Source of the DNA: an uncultured Lachnospiraceae bacterium
GTDB taxonomy: Bacteria > Bacillota > Clostridia > Lachnospirales > Lachnospiraceae
DNA length: 56,904 bases
Assembly (NCBI GenBank): GCA_947625015.1
Contig: CANQMR010000022.1
Span: 1-56,904 of the forward strand
Direction: 5' to 3'
Within the stretch, counting starts at the first letter, position 1. Every line of letters starts with the position of its first letter. Below, piece by piece: positions 12,045-46,602 of the stretch. A model generated the notes under the pieces. That model was not told the DNA's origin, ran no database searches, and saw nothing but the letters and a program-made list of their open reading frames with translations. A program made the translations under genes and the position numbers.

Positions 12045-12146
12045 AAGAGCACTTAATGAGCGCGAAGCGCGAATTTAGTGCGAGTAATATCTGGCACCTT
12101 AGCGAGCAAGGCGAGCTTAGTTGACAGATATAATAAGAGCACTTAA
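12037..12146 (+). repeat. 20-bp direct repeat bracketing a small GC-rich insert
   Basis: GATATAATAAGAGCACTTAA occurs exactly at 12037-12056 and 12127-12146. The 70 bp between them is much more GC-rich than its surroundings. It holds a GCGC-GAA-GCGC mini-hairpin (12059-12071) and the pair AGTAATATCTG (12083-12093) / GCTTAGTTGACAGA (12115-12128). A related pair occurs in the leader of the lipoprotein gene near 23187-23223. It looks like an inserted or tandemly duplicated small element in the 5' leader. Confidence 0.7.
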
Positions 12147-14828: not shown

Positions 14829-15094
14829 ATCCATGCAGTCTGCTTTGTGCATCCCCACCAACCGGTTACCATGGCAGTTAGCTCGGCCCAGGCGCCCTCG
14901 CGGCACATGAAAGCTCCTACTTAGTGCTGCTTCGTTCCCGACCTGACACGGTTCATAGGTATCCATTGCGCGAGACCCAAACGTCAACACCACTTACCAT
15001 GGCCCGCACTAATGGCAATACCCGAGGCAGACCAACACCCCTGCTATAGCGGATTGCAGGTGCAGGGTACCGCTACCACCCCGGCTGCATGGAA
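14829..15094 (-). ncRNA. ffs: Signal recognition particle RNA, large (Bacillus) type
   Basis: The RNA core of SRP, which binds Ffh and targets nascent membrane proteins. The conserved apical domain is visible on the minus strand as GTCAGGTCGGGAACGAAGCA, followed by GCACTAAG. The outermost helix is formed by TCCATGCAG (5' end, near 15086-15094) and CTGCATGGA (3' end, near 14830-14838). That gives a molecule of about 266 nt, the size of the Bacillus/Clostridium type with an Alu domain. The 5' end could lie up to 15 nt further out, before processing. A strong promoter lies just upstream. Confidence 0.93.
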
Positions 15095-45970: not shown

Positions 45971-45999
45971 AGTATATATTTCAAAATCTTTACTGTCAA
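45971..45999 (-). promoter_or_regulatory. Promoter of pckA
   Basis: On the minus strand TTGACA (45994-45999), a 17-bp spacer and TATACT (45971-45976). The -35 lies only 12 bp from the end of the giant inverted repeat, so any DNA structure or protein on that repeat could affect it. Confidence 0.87.
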
Positions 46000-46011
46000 T
46001 AGCCGAACACA

Positions 46012-46558
46012 AAATTTGTAACGATTCATTCTCCTATTTCGTTGCCTTCCCCGTTCAGCGGATATTTTTCTATTATCCGCTTTTTTGTGACACCGCCGAC
46101 GGTAAATCCTGTCCCTTCATTCCTGCACTGGTTTCGGTTTTAAGAAATTTTGCGGCCACCCGTCCGGCATATTTATTTGCACATGCTCACGAAGAACTCG
46201 CACCGGGAAGGGGTGACTGGGAAACATCTAAAGCCCCTTTAAGAACGCCGGTACTTGCGGAGGACATAAAAATTATCGTTATCTGAAGTTTGTATGTCCT
46301 CCGCTTAGTACCGCTGCGTTCTTAACAGAGCGCAAGCGTGGCTTAAGATGTTTGCCCAGCACCCCAAACCCGGTGCTCAGACACTTCTCCGCATGTGCAT
46401 TATGCCGGACGGGCGGGCCGCAAATTTCTAAAAAACCGCGTGTCAGGAATGAAGGGACAGGATTACCTTTCGGCGGTAAGCCACGAATATTTTCCCGGAT
46501 AATAGAAAAATATCCGCTGAACGGGGAAATCACCCAGAGGATGAATCGTTACAAATTT
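46012..46558. repeat. Giant imperfect inverted repeat / possible large structured RNA
   Basis: The two ends of this 547-bp stretch pair along its whole length. The outer arms match perfectly for 18 bp (46012-46029 with 46541-46558). Perfect or near-perfect blocks then follow inwards: 33 bp (46047-46079 / 46496-46528), 21 bp (46105-46125 / 46444-46464), about 30 bp (46141-46171 / 46401-46430), 8 bp (46179-46186 / 46391-46398), 8 bp (46200-46207 / 46369-46376), 20 bp with mismatches (46210-46229 / 46346-46365) and about 30 bp (46239-46268 / 46293-46325). The terminal loop is 24 nt. Between the blocks the two sides are unrelated but often form local hairpins of their own, giving possible four-way junctions. 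No convincing gene lies inside. It may be a large ncRNA or a fold-back mobile element; orientation is not known. Confidence 0.85.
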
Positions 46559-46566
46559 ATGCAAGT

Positions 46567-46602
46567 AAAAAAGCAACTCCCCGCAAGGGGAAACTGCTTT
46601 TT
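46567..46602 (-). terminator. Bidirectional terminator between abrB and the giant repeat
   Basis: AAAAAGCA / TGCTTTTT with an inner CCCC-GCAA-GGGG forms the stem. On the minus strand (end of the abrB-like gene) TTTTTTACTTG follows, and on the plus strand TTTTTATTATG follows. It could thus also end a plus-strand transcript of the giant repeat. Confidence 0.9.

Follow-up and report, generated by a model that had tools for sequence, protein, structure and literature searches.

A large inverted repeat in a Lachnospiraceae genome belongs to a dispersed, probably foldback and MITE-like family with a conserved tip module

Does the inverted repeat that lies between pckA and abrB in the window (the whole 56,904-nt stretch of DNA that was analysed) encode a new large RNA, as its preliminary description proposed, or is it a fold-back or MITE-like element, the alternative named there? 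The repeat, which covers 547 bases (46012–46558), is real, with a perfect 33-bp run pairing 46047–46079 with 46496–46528. Other arm pairs include 34-bp pairs at 88% and 82% and an outer 22-bp pair at 95%. The predicted RNA fold reaches -342 kcal/mol on the + strand and -354 kcal/mol on the - strand (z -28 and -21), and on either strand 0 of 20 shuffles was equally stable. The longest ORF within the element encodes 84 aa and no transposase gene lies inside, which agrees with the earlier statement that coding potential is not convincing. The location was likewise confirmed by the flanking genes, which match phosphoenolpyruvate carboxykinase (PF01293) and the AbrB/MazE fold (PF04014) and both lie on the - strand. 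Just outside the element, consensus matches point to a promoter-like site of the pckA-like gene (TTGACA-17 nt-TATACT, 45971–45999, - strand) and to a terminator-like hairpin after the abrB-like gene (46577–46592, - strand), and the repeat sits between the two.

The element proper probably extends from GTAACGATTCATTC to its inverted copy (46018–46552), as judged from the sequence and from the GTWAC end consensus of recent copies elsewhere. Arm pairing and the same consensus place the terminal inverted repeats at 46018–46033 (+ strand) and 46537–46552 (- strand). The termini of the window copy, GTAACGATTC, have no duplication, and there is no 8-bp target duplication in the sequence; the AAATTT outside both ends is likely a palindromic extension and not a convincing duplication. 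The boundaries of old copies are uncertain. Further inwards, the perfect 33-bp pair described above forms the outer stem (both arms given on the + strand), which differs in sequence among copies and keeps its pairing, and is followed by a conserved core whose left side (46092–46171, + strand) pairs with its right side (46401–46477, + strand) in the copy alignment.

The palindrome is real but it is not a lone RNA gene; it is a member of a dispersed repeat family. A BLAST search of its own 2.8-Mb genome returned 42 matching pieces, among which are 28 further long copies at 75–88% identity, the rest being self, partial, short tip or reverse matches. Copies also occur in the sister species G023, where one is syntenic at 94%, while the remaining matching congeners share only a short tip segment with the window element. 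In the 29 aligned long copies the core blocks are near-invariant, the tip stem-loop and the outer stem vary in sequence but remain paired, and no conservation is found outside the hairpin. The element had no match in phage and plasmid collections. In Rfam no family reached its gathering score, matches with E up to 5 being at chance level only, so this is not a known Rfam family; the window does contain a bacterial large SRP RNA (14831–15092, - strand), whose relatives provide the positive control for the wobble counts below. The open-licence PMC literature searched, at the level of titles and abstract openings, does not describe the family.

The same 29 copies bear on the shape of the fold, which had been proposed to be a series of four-way junctions built from local hairpins. 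Most of these hairpins are not conserved: ACCG/CGGT is paired in just 53% of the alignment cells, and TAAAG/CTTTA (81%) and TTACC/GGTAA (82%) are not conserved side hairpins either. The exception is CGC/GCG (93% paired), which is better drawn as a GC-GNRA-GC hairpin at 46330–46337. The block in which CACC/GGTG (whose end, previously set at 46214, was one base short) faces GCACC/GGTGC is ambiguous, with local pairing in 98% and 88% of cells, yet with the cross-arm pairs of a continuous rod holding in 93% and 98%. The series of four-way junctions was thus not confirmed and the rod has more support, although the CACC/GCACC block is compatible with both.

At the end of this rod lies the family-wide tip module (46237–46342, + strand), which scores 81.1 bits with model R1, built from ten sequences with 85 positions and 15 pairs. 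Its parts are a helix carrying a bulge of two bases, a variable stem-loop at the tip (46257–46304, + strand, defined by pairing and copy alignment) and the side mini-hairpin, which in the window reads GC-GCAA-GC on the + strand. R1 finds 55 matches in the own genome, between 1 and 114 in each of the 26 genus genomes (26/26), and matches in 107 of 250 Lachnospiraceae genomes, that is in 106 of 249 genera. Among 391 genomes sampled at class level, 13 were positive, 11 from the same family and two borderline (E 3e-4 and 8e-4). Named carriers of the module include Roseburia inulinivorans DSM 16841 and Eisenbergiella tayi. A weak partial match at 12049–12081 of the window (15.6 bits) is probably due to chance. 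The module pattern was also seen on three viral contigs (L185, L186, L187) and on contigs titled Muribaculaceae or Muribaculum (L074, L123, L133), perhaps misbinned Lachnospiraceae DNA.

The loop of the side mini-hairpin is of the GNRA type in 99 of 111 distinct modules, and its second base is A, C or G but never T. GNRA loops are a hallmark of RNA, and GUNA loops are common in RNAs. However, PMC4686876 attributes extraordinary stability to DNA mini-hairpins too, when a GNA or GNNA loop closes at least two G-C pairs, so that the loop cannot decide between RNA and DNA. The module is co-directional with its neighbours in 42 cases and opposed in 39, with 34 lying between divergent and 18 between convergent genes, and a further 17 modules fall inside ORFs that were called mechanically, a few of which belong to the element itself. 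Without a preferred orientation, cis-regulation by strand was rejected. There is no recurrent partner gene, since the largest gene cluster covers 7 of 120 loci. Seven loci (L035, L038, L068, L078, L090, L106, L206) carry a second module no more than 500 bp away and in the other orientation; all seven pairs point apart, and these loci are possibly composite elements.

The evidence for mobility comes from other genomes, in which recent copies end in GTWAC and are flanked by target duplications of 8 bp. In a blind scan, 12 of 227 copies, from at least five other genomes, had a perfect 8-bp duplication with matching ends, and 11 of these 12 had at least one GTWAC end. Duplications of 5, 7 and 9 bp, taken as a comparison, occurred in 5, 1 and 2 of the 227 copies; lengths of 4 and 6 bp were also frequent (104 and 33 copies), which we attribute in part to palindromic extension. 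The preliminary description had seen no clear target duplications, a statement that stands for the window copy and fails for the element family. The fold-back or MITE-like alternative that it named has gained from the many dispersed copies and from terminal repeats with 8-bp duplications in other genera.

In genome G100, elements of about 260 bp have GTTACTTTTCATGGGG-like terminal repeats and duplications such as GACAGCAA, GTATACTG and TCTCGCAT; 97 element ends were found there and none with the reversed control. A 2.3-kb element of G100 has the same 23-bp ends (23/23 terminal bases) and encodes a 581-aa IS66-like transposase (PF03050, E 1.5e-17; 137 bits, below the NCBIfam cut-off of 180). 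No tip module was found in the parts of this element that were examined. Very short G100 elements of 56–121 bp (L229–L234, L236, L237, L247) have the same ends and no module. Two of them carry perfect 8-bp duplications, so that some transpositions may proceed without the module. As a general partner of the module, IS66 was rejected: of the 250 family genomes, 85 carry PF03050, and 33 of these 85 are module-positive against 36 expected, which amounts to no association. Relatives of the G100 transposase are present in 19 of 250 family genomes, seven of them module-positive. PF03050 has no match in the own genome, and inspection of five genus loci (L248–L252) revealed no IS66 with ends of this type.

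In the lineage of the window, transposition appears to be old. When 26 copies were queried by their flanks in the sister species, 15 sites were filled, five had exchanged flanks, six gave no clear call and none was empty. The filled sites, with flanks about 650–670 bases apart, were judged by flank spacing only except for five whose sequence was fetched, and L029 among the 15 is ambiguous. It is the lack of an empty site among the 15 resolved loci, together with the lack of a duplication at the window copy, that suggests this age. The exchanged flanks in G023 concern L016, L017, L007, L018 and L020, and about 10 kb of sequence lying between L017 and L016 is found there next to the L007 flank, either through recombination between copies or through misassembly, which is possible at repeats in the draft assemblies used.

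Copies at orthologous sites tell whether the sequence matters where it sits. In seven ortholog pairs (L013/L055 being left out of the rate and double-change figures), 14 of 1614 sites changed in columns with at least 95% conservation across the remaining paralogs, against 81 of 1137 in columns less than 80% conserved (Fisher 4e-19), an 8-fold slower evolution of the conserved columns. The tip, although it lies amid the conserved core, differs widely between paralogs (0.42 against 0.13), which speaks against wholesale gene conversion. Selection clearly acts on the core in place, unlike a dead MITE, and the earlier view of an ornate element under selection is borne out by this constraint and by the spread of the module over the sampled genera. 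The eighth site, L013/L055, carries a core with 95.3% identity when inverted and 71.9% when read directly, with unchanged flanks; this in-place inversion (1 of 8 orthologous sites) is a single case from draft assemblies, in which misassembly is possible.

Again in these seven pairs, we counted 12 double Watson-Crick changes where about 0.9 independent doubles are expected, and five of the 12 are transversions, which cannot pass through G-U. One-sided changes left 20 A-C, 14 G-U and 8 other mismatches. At stem pairs that the two strand folds share, the 29 copies deviate from Watson-Crick pairing by 73 G-U and 88 A-C, while SRP RNA from 24 genus genomes, processed in the same way as a control, gives 34 G-U and 2 A-C. 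The module and inner-arm helices of G000 plus G023 are balanced as well (23 G-U, 23 A-C). In the other genomes the same helices have 130 G-U and 51 A-C, with 12:1 in the module base helix and 21:7 in the tip, so that a preference for the + strand is real there but much weaker than in SRP RNA. Strict tip stems give 9 G-U and 4 A-C, and an ungapped count at six module positions (22 G-U, 46 A-C) is distorted by bulges. Thus, covariation in the window lineage lacks the signature of RNA, and paired changes are weak proof of RNA here. The excess of double changes and the in-place inversion point to an interaction between the arms as DNA, while the G-U excess elsewhere and the GNRA side hairpin indicate that the module may act as a single-stranded structure, RNA included. 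We read these data to mean that, at least in the window lineage, complementarity of the arms is maintained as DNA, around a module that acts through its + strand structure, as DNA or RNA.

Altogether, we lean towards the view that the window element is an old copy, probably no longer mobile, from a non-autonomous family of foldback, MITE-like elements with a selected central module. The two arms would meet as DNA, in a hairpin or cruciform, and template switching would copy or correct changes from one arm to the other, which would keep the stems perfect, make them covary and occasionally flip the core. According to PMC8794818, template switching both creates and maintains hairpins, and PMC8604942 mentions homogenisation of arms and inversion of the spacer; the double-change excess and the inversion are as arm-to-arm switching predicts. 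With less assurance, the tip module, with its bulged helix, variable tip and GC-GNRA-GC mini-hairpin, may be the functional part, its + strand structure being read by a protein that once moved these elements or makes use of them to this day. In favour of this foldback reading we count the dispersed copies, the family spread, the duplications elsewhere, the balanced counts (73:88 and 23:23), the double excess, the inversion, the core constraint, a module that has no preferred orientation and the IS66-like ends in G100. Against it stand the + strand signal of the other genomes (130:51), which purely double-stranded DNA does not predict, the GNRA loops, a window copy that has no duplication, an own genome that has no PF03050, IS66-like genes that are not associated with the module, the high counts at lengths 4 and 6 and the fact that the inversion is single. 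Many sites and target duplications are as expected of a mobile fold-back element, and the agreement is only partial because covariation exists, though it looks DNA-level in the window lineage. Tentatively, the family may represent a new kind of chromosomal element, in tens of copies per genome, that works through a single-stranded structure of the + strand; the tip of the extruded hairpin, with its bulged helix and ultra-stable mini-hairpin, would be recognised by a protein and selected across the bacterial family, while template switching between the arms would steadily rewrite the remainder.

A large structured non-coding RNA with many gene copies is a possibility that we rather doubt. Each copy would have its own + strand promoter, the rod with its conserved internal loops would be the active form and the GNRA loop would make a tertiary or protein contact. 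The fold far beyond chance (on both strands), the conserved internal loops and near-invariant core of the 29 copies, the prevalence of the GNRA loop, the excess of G-U over A-C in other genomes and the constraint on the core in place all speak for such an RNA. However, the wobble asymmetry is missing in the window lineage, no conserved sequence outside the hairpin could serve as a shared promoter, the window copy sits between the terminator-like and promoter-like sites, the core flips in place, and T is absent at the second loop base though GUNA loops are common in RNAs; the lack of a strand preference relative to genes is a weak argument against an independent gene. The new large RNA of the preliminary description is therefore not established, with the wobble counts, the flipped copy and the indifference to strand on one side and the 130:51 ratio and the GNRA loops on the other.

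We find it unlikely that the copies are BIME- or REP-like elements used by the host, that is cruciform-prone DNA bound by nucleoid or topology proteins and for which mobility is merely history. Constraint at fixed orthologous sites, 15 resolved sister-species loci none of which is empty, the placement of the window copy between transcription units and a number of divergent gene pairs somewhat above that of convergent ones would suit such a role, but a binding site would hardly call for more than 200 near-invariant positions per copy, signals of the + strand (GNRA loop, 130:51) stand against it, and no binding protein is known. Dead, functionless MITE fossils conserved through recent spread or gene-conversion homogenisation are very improbable, since the terminal repeats and duplications of other genomes and the short module-less derivatives, two with perfect 8-bp duplications, are outweighed by the 8-fold lower change of conserved columns at orthologous sites and by a tip divergence that neither recency nor wholesale conversion explains.

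A functional RNA is ordinarily demonstrated by covariation. In this natural family a very strong fold comes with abundant covariation that, in the window lineage, lacks an RNA-strand signal, yet the core is selected, so that the family lends itself to testing how selection on RNA can be told apart from template switching on DNA. Besides, it is an abundant element of a major gut-bacterial family, found neither in Rfam nor in the literature searched, and its copies seem to serve as recombination points.

Among known systems, IS66-type MITEs share with the element its dispersal, the absence of a transposase gene, terminal inverted repeats, 8-bp duplications in recent copies and, in G100, the 23/23 terminal bases held in common with an IS66-like element. 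Unlike them, the whole element folds on itself, conservation over many genera is seen in its module (about 85 nt) but not in its ends and arms, and its own genome has no IS66. Foldback or MITE-like elements in general also occur as many dispersed copies with inverted-repeat ends, but no occupied/empty polymorphism was seen here among the 15 resolved sister-species loci. The large ornate bacterial RNAs OLE, GOLLD and ROOL (excerpt of PMC12286853) are likewise hundreds of bases long and highly structured with conserved loops, whereas the present element has no Rfam match, many dispersed copies and no wobble asymmetry in the window lineage. REP, BIME and REPIN sequences are also interspersed palindromic repeats in tens of copies that are apparently long-lived in a genome, and an excerpt of PMC8049555 reports long persistence for REPIN populations; the present element is at least 10 times longer than a REP and has terminal inverted repeats and 8-bp duplications in other genomes. 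Finally, DNA mini-hairpins such as d(GCGAAAGC), covered in PMC4686876 as well, are a chemical motif and not an element family, but the side hairpin of the element resembles them in its two G-C pairs and GNNA loop, with a third loop base that here is almost always a purine.
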